Of a stretch of 64,000 nucleotides of DNA, positions 17,323 to 23,407 are shown one piece after another. The stretch comes from Chitinophagales bacterium (GTDB taxonomy: Bacteria > Bacteroidota > Bacteroidia > Chitinophagales > CAIOSU01). Where the stretch lies: positions 1-64,000 of the forward strand of contig JAGYJT010000004.1 in NCBI GenBank assembly GCA_018401955.1, written 5' to 3'. Under the pieces are notes generated by a model. The model was not told the DNA's origin and searched no databases. It was given only the letters and a program-made list of their open reading frames with translations. Position numbers and translations under genes: made by a program. Numbering within the stretch: the stretch's first letter is position 1; each line of letters starts with the position of its first letter.

Positions 17323-18369
17323 TTAAGCCTTTTTAAGCGTAAACCCGAAGGTAGAACCCACGCCAACTGTGCTGCGCACATTAATGGTTTGGTGGTGCGC
17401 TTCTACAATGTGCTTAACTATTGATAAGCCAAGGCCTGTGCCACCTTGGTCGCGCGCCCTACTTTTATCAACTCTGTAAAACCGTTCGAATAACCTGGGC
17501 AGGTGTTCTTCGGCCATACCGATACCATCGTCGGTAATCTCAATCAGCACATTGTCGTGCATATCATATATACCTACAGAGGTAGTGCCCTGCTGTTTGC
17601 CATATTTAATTGAGTTAGAGGTAAGGTTGGTTAGCACCTGCCTTACCCTTTCCCTGTCTGCCATTACGTTAATTGTTTTTGGCGAGTCTTCTTTAAACAG
17701 CAGCGAGATGTCTTTTAGGTCTGCCTGCATTTCCAGGTTTTCAAAAACCTCCTTCATTAGCTTTACAAAATCAAACTTTCTAATGTCGAGGCTTAGTGCA
17801 TTGGTCTCCAGCTGGCTTATGGTTTCAAGGTCTTCTACAATAGCGCTCAGCCTATCAAGGTTTTGGCTGGCTTTGTATAAGTAGCTTTTGTTTATCTTCT
17901 CATCATACAGGCCGCCATCAATAAGGGTGTGTATGTAGCCTTGGATGTTAAAGATGGGGGTTTTAAGCTCATGCGAAACGTTGCCAATAAACTCTTTGCG
18001 GTAACTGTCAGAGCTTTTCAATTTTTCAATTTCTTGGGTTTGGCGTTTAGTCCAATCCACTACCTCACGCTCCACGTTTGATAGAATGTCTTCATTTATT
18101 CTTAGGGGCATCTGCGTAGCGTTTTTGGGTGCCTTTAAGTTGTTAATGGTTTTATAAACAACCTTTACCCGCCTGTAGATAAACTTTTCGAGTAGAAAGC
18201 TTAGCAAAAAATAGCCTGTAACAAAGTTGACCAACGGAAGACCCAATACCACCCAAAACGGCAATTGTAAGCCTGCTATACGGGTAAGGCCATACAGTAC
18301 AAGCAAAAGCATAAAGGATAAGCTACCGGTAACGGTAAATACCAAATCGCGGGGTGAAAGGTTCTTCAT
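17323..18369 (-). CDS. PhoR-like sensor histidine kinase
   Basis: 348 residues. Two N-terminal membrane helices (about 9-30 and 38-62) have almost no periplasmic loop between them. A linker follows, then the dimerisation domain with NVSHELKTP (phospho-acceptor H133) and a HATPase domain with N-box NLTSNSIKYG, DDGIGM and GTGLGLSIVKHIVEAH. The lack of a sensory loop fits PhoR-type kinases, which read the state of a transporter. The start codon follows directly on the stop of the regulator gene, so the pair is translated together. Confidence 0.92.
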   Translation of the reverse strand: MKNLSPRDLVFTVTGSLSFMLLLVLYGLTRIAGLQLPFWVVLGLPLVNFVTGYFLLSFLLEKFIYRRVKVVYKTINNLKAPKNATQMPLRINEDILSNVEREVVDWTKRQTQEIEKLKSSDSYRKEFIGNVSHELKTPIFNIQGYIHTLIDGGLYDEKINKSYLYKASQNLDRLSAIVEDLETISQLETNALSLDIRKFDFVKLMKEVFENLEMQADLKDISLLFKEDSPKTINVMADRERVRQVLTNLTSNSIKYGKQQGTTSVGIYDMHDNVLIEITDDGIGMAEEHLPRLFERFYRVDKSRARDQGGTGLGLSIVKHIVEAHHQTINVRSTVGVGSTFGFTLKKA

Positions 18370-19047
18370 CTATACATCGAATTTGTACCCGATGCCTTTG
18401 ATGGTTTTAAACTGATCGTCGCCAATTTTTTCACGGAGTTTTCTGATGTGTACATCTATGGTACGGTCGCCAACAATTATATCGTTGCCCCATATTTTGC
18501 TCATAATCTCTTTGCGAGAGAACACTTTACCGGGCTTAGATGCTAGCAAACTTAATAGTTCAAACTCTTTTTTGGGTAAGCTCAATTTCTCACCATCTTT
18601 ATACACTAGGTATTTTTCTCGGTCAATTTCTATGGAGCCAAGGCTTACGTTTTCCTCTTGTACCTCGCTACCAAAGCGGCGCATTAAGGCCTTCATGCGG
18701 CTAATAAGCACTCGTGGCTTAATGGGCTTGGTTATATAGTCATCAGCACCAACATCAAAACCCGCTATTTGAGAGTAGTCCTCATTTCGCGCGGTTAAAA
18801 ACGCAATGAGTGTGTTCTTAAACTCGGGTATGTTGCGCAACTCTCGGCAGGTTTCAATGCCATCAAGCTCAGGCATCATAATATCCAACAAAATCATTTG
18901 CGGGTGGTGTGCCTTTGCCTTGGTAATAGCTTCGCGGCCATTTTCTGCTAGTATTATCTCGTAGCCTTCACGCTCTAAGTTATACTGCAAAAACTCCAAG
19001 ATATCTGGCTCGTCGTCGGCAATCAGGATTTTTATCTTATCAGACAT
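18370..19047 (-). CDS. OmpR/PhoB-family response regulator
   Basis: 225 residues. Receiver domain with acidic pair D11/D12, phospho-site D55 (LLDIMMPE) and KPIKP. The C-terminal winged helix has GDRTIDVHIRKLREKIGDD and ends FKTIKGIGYKFDV. It is cognate to the kinase downstream. It is divergent from the beta-helix lipoprotein gene, and the 195-base gap between them has 11-bp-spaced GTTAAA direct repeats, the layout bound by this family. Confidence 0.95.
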   Translation of the reverse strand: MSDKIKILIADDEPDILEFLQYNLEREGYEIILAENGREAITKAKAHHPQMILLDIMMPELDGIETCRELRNIPEFKNTLIAFLTARNEDYSQIAGFDVGADDYITKPIKPRVLISRMKALMRRFGSEVQEENVSLGSIEIDREKYLVYKDGEKLSLPKKEFELLSLLASKPGKVFSRKEIMSKIWGNDIIVGDRTIDVHIRKLREKIGDDQFKTIKGIGYKFDV

Positions 19048-19100
19048 GACTGTTAATTTTATGCAAAGCTAAAGTTGCACTCTTTGTCCATTGTTGCGCC

Positions 19101-19136
19101 AATGTTAAAGATACGTTAAAATGGACACTATTAACA
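19101..19136. promoter_or_regulatory. Candidate binding site for the OmpR/PhoB-type regulator
   Basis: GTTAAA at 19104-19109 and again at 19115-19120 form a direct repeat with an exact 11-bp step, followed by an opposed TTAACA at 19131-19136. OmpR-family regulators bind such one-turn-spaced half-sites as dimers. The position between the regulator and the lipoprotein-receptor genes would allow autoregulation as well as control of the uptake pair. Confidence 0.4.
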
Positions 19137-19242
19137 TTCGTTTTGGTAAAACAAACTTAATAAACCAGTCATTTCAGGTTAAGACTAACTGTGTTGTTTT
19201 GCATCGAGTTTTGAAACAGACAAAAACCTAAACCCAAACACA

Positions 19243-20493
19243 ATGTTTAAAAATCTTTCCCTTTTCCGTATGTTGCTTATGTTGCTAGCAACTTCAGTTA
19301 TTGTTTCTTCTTGCGACAAAGAAGATGATGACGATGATGATGAAAACCCACAAACTTCTACTGTAGTATTGCAAGGTGAGTACACTACTGACCGCCAATT
19401 GAGCAGCGATACTATTTATGAAATGAGAGGTTATGTAGTATTTACAGGTGGTGCTACCCTTAGCATTGAGCCAGGTACTATTATTAAAGCTGCTACTGGT
19501 ACTGGTACTGATGCCACTGTATTGGTAATTGCTCGTGGTTCAAAAATTGAAGCTGTAGGTAATGCTAATAATCCTATCATCTTTACCTCAGTAGAAGATA
19601 ACATTGCCCTTGGTCAAAAATTTGGTACTAACCTTGGTAAAGACGATATCTCTCTATGGGGTGGTGTAATTATATTGGGTAGTGCTAAAATATCTGCTCA
19701 AGACGGTGACACCGAAACTCAAATTGAAGGTTTGCCAGCAAACTCTACTTTTGGTTTATATGGTGGTAATAATGACGCTGACGATTCTGGCGAATTGCGC
19801 TATGTTTCTATCCGTCACACTGGTACTTCAATTGCTCCTGATAATGAGTTGCAGGGTCTTACCATGGGCGGTGTTGGTAACACTACCCAAATAAATTACA
19901 TTGAGAGCTATGCTAGTTTTGATGATGGAATCGAGATTTTTGGTGGTAGTGTAAATGTAAACCACCTAGTTGTAGCTTATGCTAACGACGATGCAGTTGA
20001 TTTGGATATGAGCTACTCTGGTACTATCGACAACTTTTATGTAATACATGAAGGTGGTAGCGCTGGTAACTCTGGCTTTGAGTTTGATGGCCCTGAAGGT
20101 ACTTCAAACCGTGGTGGTAAATATACCGTAACCAATGGTACCGTGAAAAAAGTTGGTGGTAATGGCCGTGCAGCTACATTGAAAAGTGCATCACAAGGTA
20201 CTATCAACAACTGTGCTTTTATTGGTTTCAGCGAGTGGGTTACTGTTGAAGGTGGCGATGCTAACAGCAACTACCTAGCAGGTGATTTGGAAATTACCAA
20301 TTGTCAATTTGTAACATCTGCCCTTACTGGTGTTGTAGTTTCAAATGGCAGCACTGCTGATTCATTGGCTATTGAGGCACTATTTGTATTGCCTGCCGCT
20401 GGTAATACTGCGGTTACTACCCCAACAGTTGGTGCTACTATCAATGCATTTTCTGGCTGGACTTTGGCTGGTGAGCAAGGTTTAATTGACTAA
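19243..20493 (+). CDS. Surface lipoprotein, right-handed beta-helix type
   Basis: 416 residues. The signal sequence ends in lipobox VSSC (Cys near residue 24), followed by an acidic linker KEDDDDDDE, which resembles export signals that place lipoproteins on the surface in Bacteroidota. The body has short repeating beta-strand turns rich in G, N, D and T (GGATLSIEPGTIIKA, GGVIILGSAKISA, GSVNVNHLVVAYANDDAVDLD), typical of parallel beta-helix proteins. Together with the TonB receptor gene after it, it looks like a lipoprotein/receptor uptake pair without SusD homology. No catalytic residues can be assigned. Confidence 0.8.
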   Translation: MFKNLSLFRMLLMLLATSVIVSSCDKEDDDDDDENPQTSTVVLQGEYTTDRQLSSDTIYEMRGYVVFTGGATLSIEPGTIIKAATGTGTDATVLVIARGSKIEAVGNANNPIIFTSVEDNIALGQKFGTNLGKDDISLWGGVIILGSAKISAQDGDTETQIEGLPANSTFGLYGGNNDADDSGELRYVSIRHTGTSIAPDNELQGLTMGGVGNTTQINYIESYASFDDGIEIFGGSVNVNHLVVAYANDDAVDLDMSYSGTIDNFYVIHEGGSAGNSGFEFDGPEGTSNRGGKYTVTNGTVKKVGGNGRAATLKSASQGTINNCAFIGFSEWVTVEGGDANSNYLAGDLEITNCQFVTSALTGVVVSNGSTADSLAIEALFVLPAAGNTAVTTPTVGATINAFSGWTLAGEQGLID

Positions 20494-20530
20494 TTCAACT
20501 TGTATTACTTTTTGCTACTAAAATCGTTTG

Positions 20531-20563
20531 CCCTCCCGGTCACTACCCGGGAGGGTACTTTTT
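20531..20563 (+). terminator. Intercistronic hairpin/terminator before the TonB receptor
   Basis: A 9-bp GC-rich stem ccctcccgg / ccgggaggg with a 7-base loop and a T-run (tactttttaaa) lies between the lipoprotein stop and the receptor ATG, only about 12 bases before the latter. Partial termination here would give more lipoprotein than receptor. Confidence 0.75.
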
Positions 20564-20575
20564 AAAACTACTGTA

Positions 20576-23407
20576 ATGAAAAACATTTGCTTACTACTGT
20601 TGCTATTGGCAACAACCTTTGGCATCGCTACTGCACAAGGAACCAACGGAACCATTCGCGGAACCGTGATTGACGACAAAACCGGAGAAACCCTTATTGG
20701 CGTTACCGTATTAATTGAAGGTACCGCTACCGGTACCATTACCGATTTGGATGGAGCTTACAACTTACCAGCACCAGCCGGCACCCACACTTTGGTATTT
20801 TCTTACATTAGTTACGCTACAAAGAAAGTAACCGAGGTAACCGTAAAAGCGGGCGAAGTAACCGTAATTGACCTGCGCATGGCGGGCAATACTGAAGAGA
20901 TTAGCGAGGTAACTATCTCAGCAGAGCGCACCAGAAACACCGATAATGCGCTACTTACCGTGCAGAAAAACTCTATGGTGGTGTTGGATGGCATTTCGTC
21001 GCAGAGCATCAGTAAGGCTGGCGATAGTGATGCCGCCGAAGCTTTAAAGCGCGTACCTGGGGTATCAATTGAAGGGGGCAAATATATGTATGTGCGCGGC
21101 CTTGGCGATAGGTATACTAAAACCATGCTGAACGGCATGGATATACCAGGCCTTGACCCAGACCGTAACACGGTGCAGATGGACGTTTTCCCGACCAATC
21201 TGGTGGATAATATCATAGTTTACAAAACCTTCTCTCCCGACCTGCCAGGTGACTTTACAGGGGGTGTGGTTGATATTAGCACCAAAAGTTTTCAAGATAG
21301 AAAGCAGTTTGACATAGGTGGTGGTTTTGGTGTTAACACAGCTACTACTTTTGACAATAACTTTATTCTATACAAGGGCGGCAAGCTTGATTGGCTTGGT
21401 ATGGATGATGGAACCCGCAGTTTGCCATACGACTTTAGCAAAACCATTGACGAATCGTATGAAATTAGGCGCAACCCTGAGCTTGAGGAAATTGTTCGCA
21501 GTTTTCCTACCACTTTGGGCGTAACAAAAACTAGGGCATTGCCCAACCAAAACTATTTTGTAAGCTTTGGTAACCAATATAATCGCAAGGGCAAAACATT
21601 TGGATTTAATACCGGCTTTACTTACCGCAATAATTTCCAGTTTTATGAAAAGGCTGAGTATGGCGAATATATACACGATGCCGACCCAGCTGATTTGGAA
21701 TTAGACAAAGAAAACTATCGCCAATCTTCGGGCCCATTGGGCATAAACAATGTTACTTGGAGTGGCTTACTAGCCGGTGCATACAAAACGGCTAAGAGTA
21801 AATATACCGCACAGCTTTTCCATACCCAAAATGGTGAGAGCGCAGGTAGTTTTAGAGACCAGTTTGATGGCGTAAACCAAATAAATACTATACTTCATGT
21901 ATTGAGCTACAATCAGCGCTCTATTACCAACTTTTTGCTTACAGGCAAACATCAGTTTAATAAGCTGGAAATGGAGTGGAAAAACTCCCTTTCGTACTCA
22001 AACTTAAAAGACCCTGACCTACGCATCATGCAGTTTAGGGTAATAAACAACGATACCGTACTTGAAGCAGGTGGTAGCGCAAGCGCTGCACGCTTGTACC
22101 GAAATTTGCATGAGATAACAGAGAACTTTAGAATGGACTTTACCCTACCTTTTAAACAATGGGGTGGTTTGGCATCTAAGTTAAAGTTTGGCGTATACGA
22201 TACCTATAAAACCCGCAGCTTTGAGTCATACAGGGTGCGCATGGTTAACAATGGATTGCAAATTGAGGGTGGCCCTGACTTTTTATTGGCAGAAGAGAAC
22301 ATCTGGAACCCGGAGAACCGTGGAGGTACCTATATAACTGGTAACCAAGACCTCTCAAATACCTTTGATGCTTGGATGAACGTAGCAGCGGTATATGTAA
22401 TGAACGAATTGCCGTTGCACCCTAAACTTAATGTGGTATATGGTTTGCGCGTTGAAAAGGCTGACCTTTTCTTTACAGGGCAAAAGCAGCAAGTATTTAA
22501 TCCTGAAACCGATAAGTTTGACAACGAACGGGTGTTGAACGAGATAGATTTCTTACCTGCGCTAAATATGGTATACACGGCGGTAGAAAACATGAATATC
22601 CGCTTTTCATACTCTCGTACGGTAGCTAGGCCTACATTTAAAGAGAAGTCTTTGGCACAAATTGTTGATCCAATCTCGGAGATTACTTTTATTGGGAACA
22701 TTGGCCTAGAGCAAACCAACATTGATAACCTTGACCTTAGGTGGGAATACTTTTTTGGCCTAGGAGAAATGATTTCGGCCAGTGCGTTTTTCAAAAACTT
22801 TAACAACCCTATTGAGGTGGTTATTTTCTCAGATGTGGCCCCTAGGGACTTTACCCCGCGCAACGTTAACAATGCCAAGGCTTATGGTTTGGAGGTAGAA
22901 ATACGCAAGAATTTTAAGTTTGTACATTCTAAATTAGAGCCTCTTGTAATTAGCCTCAACGCATCTTGGATAAAATCGGTAACGGAGCTAAGCGAAGCAG
23001 AAATTGAAGGCCGTAACAAATGGGTAAAAGATGGCTATAGCATCCCTACCAAGCGTGCCATGTATGGCCAGTCGCCTTACCTTATTAATGCTAACATCAG
23101 CTACAATGCCGAAAAGTTGGGCCTAACTGCCACGTTAGCATACAACGTACAAGGCAAGCGCTTGGTAGTTGTGGGTGGTGGTAGAGCACCCGATGTATAT
23201 GAGATGCCGTTCAATAGTTTGAATTTCAAACTATCAGAGGTGTTTGGTAAAAAAGATCAGTTTAGGGTTAGTGTACAGGCAGAGAATATACTAGGCGATG
23301 ACTTACTAAAACAATACGAAACGTATTATGGTGCTGAGCCTGCTATTTTTCAAAGATTGTTACCTGGCAGAGGTTTCTCAGTTGGGTTTACTTACTCTAT
23401 AAATTAA
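20576..23407 (+). CDS. TonB-dependent outer-membrane receptor
   Basis: 943 residues from the ATG at 20576; codons upstream lie in the hairpin. Signal peptide MKNICLLLLLLATTFGIATAQ, then a carboxypeptidase-regulatory-like domain (GTIRGTVIDDKTGETLIGVTV, about residues 24-105), and a plug domain (DAAEALKRVPGVSIEGGKYMYVRGLGDRY, VDNIIVYKTFSPDLPGDFTGGVVDI). A 22-strand-type barrel ends in a C-terminal aromatic strand (GFSVGFTYSIN). It lacks the FRAP/NPxL boxes of haem receptors. Proximity to a PhoBR-like system suggests a phosphorus-containing substrate, but that is inference. A terminator follows after a small inverted repeat. Confidence 0.93.
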   Translation: MKNICLLLLLLATTFGIATAQGTNGTIRGTVIDDKTGETLIGVTVLIEGTATGTITDLDGAYNLPAPAGTHTLVFSYISYATKKVTEVTVKAGEVTVIDLRMAGNTEEISEVTISAERTRNTDNALLTVQKNSMVVLDGISSQSISKAGDSDAAEALKRVPGVSIEGGKYMYVRGLGDRYTKTMLNGMDIPGLDPDRNTVQMDVFPTNLVDNIIVYKTFSPDLPGDFTGGVVDISTKSFQDRKQFDIGGGFGVNTATTFDNNFILYKGGKLDWLGMDDGTRSLPYDFSKTIDESYEIRRNPELEEIVRSFPTTLGVTKTRALPNQNYFVSFGNQYNRKGKTFGFNTGFTYRNNFQFYEKAEYGEYIHDADPADLELDKENYRQSSGPLGINNVTWSGLLAGAYKTAKSKYTAQLFHTQNGESAGSFRDQFDGVNQINTILHVLSYNQRSITNFLLTGKHQFNKLEMEWKNSLSYSNLKDPDLRIMQFRVINNDTVLEAGGSASAARLYRNLHEITENFRMDFTLPFKQWGGLASKLKFGVYDTYKTRSFESYRVRMVNNGLQIEGGPDFLLAEENIWNPENRGGTYITGNQDLSNTFDAWMNVAAVYVMNELPLHPKLNVVYGLRVEKADLFFTGQKQQVFNPETDKFDNERVLNEIDFLPALNMVYTAVENMNIRFSYSRTVARPTFKEKSLAQIVDPISEITFIGNIGLEQTNIDNLDLRWEYFFGLGEMISASAFFKNFNNPIEVVIFSDVAPRDFTPRNVNNAKAYGLEVEIRKNFKFVHSKLEPLVISLNASWIKSVTELSEAEIEGRNKWVKDGYSIPTKRAMYGQSPYLINANISYNAEKLGLTATLAYNVQGKRLVVVGGGRAPDVYEMPFNSLNFKLSEVFGKKDQFRVSVQAENILGDDLLKQYETYYGAEPAIFQRLLPGRGFSVGFTYSIN

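Follow-up and report, generated by a model that had tools for sequence, protein, structure and literature searches.

Two mirrored candidate Pho promoters between a PhoBR-like pair and a lipoprotein/TonB receptor pair in an uncultured Chitinophagales lineage

Background

A PhoBR-like gene pair lying back to back with genes for a lipoprotein and a TonB-dependent receptor raises the question of which signal the pair answers and through which DNA sites it would reach the genes on either side. Such a locus is present in the 64,000-nucleotide stretch of Chitinophagales DNA analysed here (the window), and a sequence-only reading had proposed for it a phosphate-starvation uptake system, possibly for an organic phosphorus polymer. 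The genome of the window is a draft of 3.49 Mb in 153 contigs and is 79% complete. Bacteroidota promoters have the consensus TAnnTTTG for the -7 element and TTTG for the -33 element.

Several counterparts are described in the sections of published work drawn on here. In Flavobacterium johnsoniae, PUSIV or the 'PhoBR operon' (Fjoh_0541-0549) is a phosphate-sensitive cluster with PhoR, PhoB, a TonB receptor and the lipoprotein FII; its transcriptome column, presumably log2 fold change, gives 8.02 for the receptor, 9.91 for FII and 3.06 for PhoB, with no significant induction of PhoR (0.76) or OprP (-1.3) (PMC8115612). The same account relates the lipoproteins FI-FIII to the Caulobacter low-phosphate lipoprotein CC0170 at 31-36% identity, and plant-associated Bacteroidetes are said there to be without PstSABC (PMC8115612). 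CC0170 is ElpS of Caulobacter crescentus, a low-phosphate surface lipoprotein linked with extracellular alkaline phosphatase activity (PMC2996285). A motif in which TTTAACA is most conserved is reported for PhoP of Riemerella anatipestifer, which binds upstream of its own operon and has hundreds of sites (PMC9603813), and PhoB of Bacteroides fragilis binds the pstC promoter in a gel shift (PMC3547664).

Results

The gene coordinates bear out a 195-bp divergent gap (19048-19242), from which the kinase/regulator pair runs on the minus strand and the lipoprotein/receptor pair on the plus strand (Table 1). The search for conservation that the sequence-only reading had proposed found the four-gene block in four of five same-genus genomes, the window's own counted, and all four keep two repeats at an 11-bp step, with bases changed in G001. 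The two best NCBIfam models of the regulator are PhoB models, with scores below the curated equivalog cut-offs (TIGR02154, 219.8 vs 296.2 bits; NF053854, 215.6 vs 270 bits), and the kinase misses the PhoR equivalog cut-offs (TIGR02966, 233 vs 334.2 bits; NF053855, 163.3 vs 500 bits), so the names PhoB-like and PhoR-like are used. The kinase had been described as lacking a sensory loop, as in PhoR, and this agrees with the domain search, which returned HisKA and HATPase only, and with two hydrophobic segments located within residues 7-34 and 31-60, indicating that the loop is very short.

Table 1 Features of the locus, in window coordinates
Feature	Position	Strand	Basis or remark
PhoR-like histidine kinase	17323..18369	-	HisKA + HATPase, no sensory domain found
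PhoB-like response regulator	18370..19047	-	receiver (Asp55, Lys107) + winged helix
-7 element of phoB promoter, TAGCTTTG	19064..19071	-	27 bp past the two-unit box, a spacing shared with other promoters
Predicted phoB operator, four 11-bp steps TTTAACGTATC TTTAACATTGG CGCAACAATGG ACAAAGAGTGC	19077..19120	-	22-bp matrix rank 1, 69-bp model rank 2
Predicted lipoprotein operator, four 11-bp steps GGTAAAACAAA CTTAATAAACC AGTCATTTCAG GTTAAGACTAA	19145..19188	+	69-bp model rank 1
-7 element of lipoprotein promoter, TTGTTTTG, one base off TAnnTTTG	19194..19201	+	27 bp past the two-unit box
Lipoprotein, predicted parallel beta-helix	19243..20493	+	likened to F. johnsoniae FII by position and class
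Strong GC-rich hairpin, then T-rich stretch; possible partial terminator	20529..20557	+	between lipoprotein and receptor, folding z -3.7
TonB-dependent receptor, CarboxypepD_reg-like N-terminal domain, not SusC	20576..23407	+	domain/family searches

The lipoprotein carries a lipobox, VSSC, with Cys24, and matches no Pfam or NCBIfam family. Its AlphaFold2 model (mean pLDDT 79.5, pTM 0.82) is a right-handed parallel beta-helix, and VIA-align placed it, among the 50 matches listed, at Z 19.7-22.6 and 8-14% identity to proteins that include many beta-helix enzymes and tailspikes. Foldseek found nothing in the PDB at E up to 0.001, nor did the profile search at E up to 1. The beta-helix assignment is taken from AlphaFold2 and the VIA-align matches listed, and families beyond those may match as well; together with the lipobox, the two support the beta-helix lipoprotein of the sequence-only reading. 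Nine acidic residues are invariant in 17 of 17 aligned lipoproteins, which suggests a metal site or an active site. The partner receptor scored 70 bits against the SusC/RagA model TIGR04056, where the cut-off is 368, and the lipoprotein, having no Pfam match, is without a SusD domain; in agreement with the sequence-only reading, the pair is not SusCD. The start of the receptor was taken as the ATG, and TTG 20528, merely the first start given by the ORF lister, was rejected. Hairpins like the one between the two genes were also seen, with changed sequences, in seven of seven other lipoprotein-receptor intergenes that were folded, for which there was no shuffle control; a hairpin after the lipoprotein gene could permit an excess of lipoprotein over receptor.

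The repeat that had drawn attention to the gap, GTTAAA twice with an 11-bp step, was confirmed as the single GTTAAA-N5-GTTAAA site in the window (19104-19120), where dinucleotide shuffles gave a mean of 0.06 and one occurrence in 6 of 100 shuffles. Read on the reverse strand it is TTTAAC-GTATC-TTTAAC and points at phoB, away from the lipoprotein gene. It forms the first two steps of the phoB operator (TTTAACGTATC TTTAACATTGG), and the last two steps are weak. The proposal that this repeat is the regulator site of the divergent gap was right in that it behaves as a PhoB-type box, but the box is placed in the phoB promoter, and the lipoprotein gene has a weaker array of its own on the other strand.

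A 22-bp matrix was built from 14 sites of other genomes that had been picked as motif matches and included no phoB and no lipoprotein site; one of them, the pstS site of G006, sits 40 bp inside the longest possible ORF. On the window the phoB box ranked first of 127,958 positions at 17.3 bits, while the lipoprotein array reached just 5.4 bits (rank 32). The matrix was also applied to 80 named loci, the best 80 of at least 535 relatives, 77 of which are titled with Bacteroidota taxa (names as read), one (L193) with Verrucomicrobia and two (L184, L190) with 'bacterium' only; counts are given for these loci, without probabilities, because the loci are related to one another. Scores of at least 10 bits occurred upstream of 45 of 78 lipoprotein genes, compared with 39 of 547 other ORFs and 34 of 1560 shuffles, and regulator promoters reached that score in only 14 of 30 loci. 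Pfam searches on 10 of the 15 best other ORFs identified three PhoU-fused Na/Pi cotransporters, two porin O/P, two Pit, one regulator, one MORN protein and one ORF without a family, later labelled lipoprotein-like in the run of the 69-bp model described below; the other five of the 15 comprised two receptors, a near-copy of the MORN gene, L210 (unannotated) and L219 (porin O/P). With a matrix made without Na/Pi sites, 11 of 16 PhoU-fused Na/Pi genes of relatives beat all but at most 3 of 200 shuffles, and the other five scored no better than shuffles.

The position of TTTG 3' of the box keeps to a fixed register. In 63 promoters, offset class 5 modulo 11 holds 42 of 58 TTTG occurrences, against a mean of 1.6 and a largest value of 9 in 2000 shuffles; octamer offsets of 5, 16, 27 and 49 account for 41 of the 58, and the non-redundant set of 56 promoters gives 34 of 49. 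The fuller TAnnTTTG occurs ten times, at offsets 5, 16 and 27 and once at 28. Spacings 1-2 bp off the register are found in phoX group d (18) and at the Na/Pi gene of the window's own genome (4), and no TTTG lies in range at the own phoA or at the phoA and pstS genes of relatives. The resulting layout has as many as four 11-bp units, followed at a fixed distance by the Bacteroidota -7 element.

A 69-bp model was anchored on the in-register TTTG of 34 non-redundant lipoprotein promoters of other loci and contains TTAAC-like units at four 11-bp steps followed by the -7 element. On the window, which was held out, the lipoprotein promoter (19139-19207, plus strand) ranked first of 127,864 positions at 26.4 bits and the phoB promoter (19058-19126, minus strand) second at 23.8 bits, with the third position at 5.4 bits, indicating that both genes at the gap have one kind of promoter, in mirrored arrangement. 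Among the other ORFs of the 80 loci, at least 10 bits were reached by 8 of 11 porin O/P, 7 of 9 Pit, 7 of 36 regulator and 3 of 13 PhoU-fused Na/Pi genes, and by 5 of 71 receptors, 0 of 25 kinases and 4 of 422 unlabelled ORFs. Receptor promoters were not enriched for the model (p 0.29).

Phosphate genes were located by family searches and scored for the pattern NTTAAC-N5-NTTAAC oriented toward the gene. The phosphate proposal had been made to depend on the motif recurring upstream of other phosphate genes, and it was found in the own genome before phoA, two of three phoX genes and the Na/Pi cotransporter. In relatives, with at most one change in ten scored bases, it precedes phoA in 3 of 4 cases, phoX group b in 3 of 3, phoX group d in 2 of 3, the Na/Pi cotransporter in 4 of 5 and PstS-like genes in 1 of 5 (G005, with four tandem units). 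The upstream scan found no motif at the third own phoX, phoX group a, the PstS-like genes of G001 and G003 or the phoA of G043. In structure, the tandem 11-bp units before these genes agree with a Pho box. An own-genome match to the PstS family (22 bits, below cut-off) was not accepted as PstS, an absence that carries little weight at 79% completeness.

Counted in bulk, the motif is not enriched. TTAAC-N6-TTAAC has 20 exact sites in the own genome where its reversed control has 23 (44 vs 47 with one mismatch); 5 of the 20 immediately precede phosphate genes, among them phoB. Six genomes together have 85 sites, compared with 187 for a reversed pattern that is inflated in some of them. GTTAAA-N5-GTTAAA has three exact sites in the own genome. 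Of the two outside the window, one is found 90 bp ahead of a MarR gene; the remaining one has no ORF of at least 80 aa within 3.9 kb in the one direction examined. The window and L034-L051 contain 231 ORFs of at least 150 aa, and the exact motif lies no more than 150 bp ahead of 11 of them, namely 4 regulators, 4 lipoproteins, 1 receptor, 1 PhoA and 1 PhoX; lipoprotein-locus genes are over-represented in L034-L051, since these loci were fetched for their lipoprotein. Two clusters of TTAAC repeats, at G000:C2:32145-32227 (L163), lie ahead of a MarR-family gene.

In the 80 loci the receptor is directly 3' of the lipoprotein in 75. A PhoB-like gene is present in 30, and in 22 it is divergent and within 1.5 kb, giving blocks similar to that of the window; the other 50 have no PhoB-like gene nearby, and many loci end at contig edges. 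A PhoU-fused Na/Pi cotransporter accompanies 13 of the 30 loci with a regulator vs 2 of the 50 without, and Pit is found in 0 of 30 vs 9 of 50. Cotransporter, PhoB-like regulator and lipoprotein occur together in L204, L206, L212, L214, L218, L222, L223, L234, L235, L237, L243, L246 and L252. Porin O/P is also present in eight of the nine Pit loci (L219, L230, L241, L247, L248, L251, L253, L256 and L260); there the Pit and porin O/P genes are 3' of the lipoprotein and receptor, with no regulator nearby, and are among the strongest promoter matches. No stand-alone PhoU was found in any of the five same-genus genomes, the sole PhoU match being in frames of 598-709 aa, and Pfam identifies the PhoU-containing frame of the own genome as the Na/Pi fusion. 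The box precedes this gene in the own genome and in G001-G004.

Discussion

The block, in which phoB, phoR, a TonB receptor and a beta-helix lipoprotein stand together, is a phoBR/lipoprotein/receptor module of the PUSIV type and a relative, in an uncultured lineage, of an already known phosphate-starvation locus. The promoter layout, its conservation and the company of phosphate genes in which it is found are computational observations. Regulation by phosphate is well supported: the motif stands at phosphate genes, its TTTAACA core is published, and so is induction of the F. johnsoniae block when phosphate is depleted (PMC8115612, PMC9603813), so the phosphate-starvation part of the sequence-only reading holds. 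It is very probable that the window block is a Bacteroidota phosphate-starvation module of this kind, with the PhoBR-like pair acting on both arrays in the gap.

The mechanism that we propose would begin with phosphate shortage, on which the PhoR-like kinase would lead to a phosphorylated PhoB-like regulator. The regulator would bind the tandem 11-bp repeats in the gap, where two back-to-back arrays, each at a fixed register to its own -7 element, would serve phoB-phoR on one side and the lipoprotein and, beyond the hairpin, the receptor on the other. Most likely it would fill the units up to the -7 element and replace the -33 element, analogous to E. coli PhoB, which acts at the -35 region. 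As a consequence, the regulator would feed back on phoB and activate the lipoprotein/receptor genes at low phosphate, and the lipoprotein/receptor pair would help to obtain phosphorus outside the cell.

Comparison with the counterparts, limited to the parts of their accounts drawn on here, shows both likeness and difference. PUSIV shares phoR, phoB, the TonB receptor and a lipoprotein of beta-helix class (IPR011050) in one cluster, and its PhoR, like the window kinase, has HisKA and HATPase only; the window pair is likened, by description and class, to Fjoh_0546 (lipoprotein) and Fjoh_0545 (receptor) (PMC8115612). The locus-tag order in PUSIV, however, is PhoR, PhoB, receptor, lipoprotein, compared with PhoR, PhoB, gap, lipoprotein, receptor in the window, and next to the window block there was no sign of the OprP, glycosyltransferase and PF07705 lipoprotein genes that neighbour PUSIV's (PMC8115612). 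The ElpS gene also adjoins a TonB receptor gene (CC0171), a pairing said to be widespread, but it is beside type II secretion genes and not phoBR, and CC0171 is reported not to be phosphate-regulated, the two systems being compared by description (PMC2996285). The Riemerella site shares the TTTAACA core and the position before its own operon with the phoB box, whereas the account calls it ArcA-like and gives no four-unit register with a -7 element; the regulators are likened by motif (PMC9603813). The E. coli Pho box likewise has two 11-nt direct repeat units with seven well and four less conserved bases, but reads CTGTCAT in place of NTTAACA and belongs to another core promoter (PMC4415409). 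B. fragilis PhoB, from the same phylum, is also tied to a phosphate-gene promoter, with no box sequence given in the text drawn on (PMC3547664). Block and motif core are thus already in print, in PUSIV (PMC8115612) and the Riemerella TTTAACA (PMC9603813). Literature searches on a Bacteroidota Pho box returned the Riemerella motif alone, with no -7 register or mirrored arrays, and as far as they reach the promoter register with its -7 element, its two mirrored copies and the candidate phosphate sensor are new.

Chance resemblance in AT-rich intergenic DNA as the source of the repeats would fit the bulk motif counts, which equal their controls, but is scarcely credible given the TTTG register and the two top held-out ranks, which are 18 bits clear of the third. 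It is also quite unlikely that the regulator answers another signal, such as redox or envelope stress, with TTAAC repeats as a general site and phosphate genes as part of a broad regulon. This reading gains from the ArcA likeness of the Riemerella motif, with its hundreds of sites and an account that discusses oxidative stress and virulence and not phosphate in the part drawn on (PMC9603813), and from own-genome sites before MarR, acyl-CoA ligase-like and isocitrate dehydrogenase-like genes; against it, matches to the 69-bp model gather on porin O/P, Pit, regulator and PhoU-fused Na/Pi genes, with few among the unlabelled ORFs, and phosphate depletion switches on the F. johnsoniae block (PMC8115612).

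Within phosphate regulation, the task of the lipoprotein can be read in two ways. It may be an auxiliary protein that boosts extracellular phosphatase activity or anchors it, a role suggested for ElpS, with the receptor importing the product or phosphate, a tentative view that we would not call probable. The alkaline phosphatase activity linked with ElpS (PMC2996285) and the lipoprotein/receptor paralogues beside phoX in the own genome point this way, but no phosphatase domain or partner was identified at the window block, and ElpS is likened by description. Rather doubtful is uptake or degradation of a phosphorus polymer at the surface, the substrate suggested by the sequence-only reading, in which the lipoprotein would bind or cut the polymer and the receptor import the pieces. 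The predicted fold does resemble polysaccharide lyases, epimerases and polygalacturonases, a role in binding or hydrolysing plant glycans has been suggested (PMC8115612), and the invariant acidic residues would fit; yet similarity of fold does not reveal a substrate, the relative in Caulobacter is tied to alkaline phosphatase activity instead (PMC2996285), and an acidic face would be ill-suited to a bare polyanion.

Being found near phoBR in other lineages and, in this genus, with the box upstream and no stand-alone PhoU detected, the PhoU-fused Na/Pi cotransporter is a candidate sensor. A more general proposal, which we consider improbable as a whole, is that the Bacteroidota Pho regulon uses tandem NTTAACA 11-bp units 5+11k bp from a -7 element, replacing the -33 element, and that where stand-alone PhoU is absent, as in this genus, the fused cotransporter, itself so promoted and elsewhere near phoBR, senses phosphate for the loop-less kinase. 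The promoter rule, if it holds, would allow phosphate-regulated Bacteroidota genes to be read from sequence and would be more widely useful than the block itself, and the association of phoBR with the fused cotransporter opens a way to ask how phosphate is sensed without Pst and PhoU.

Paralogues of the lipoprotein and TonB receptor genes lie on the minus strand at L052 (G000:C86, 3148-9291), divergent from a PhoX gene with a T9SS sorting domain; this PhoX gene has the exact box, and the same arrangement is present in G004. Relatives of the lipoprotein at 30-40% identity occur on 21 plasmid-collection records, 12 of them Pseudoalteromonas, indicating that the lipoprotein family reaches beyond Bacteroidota.
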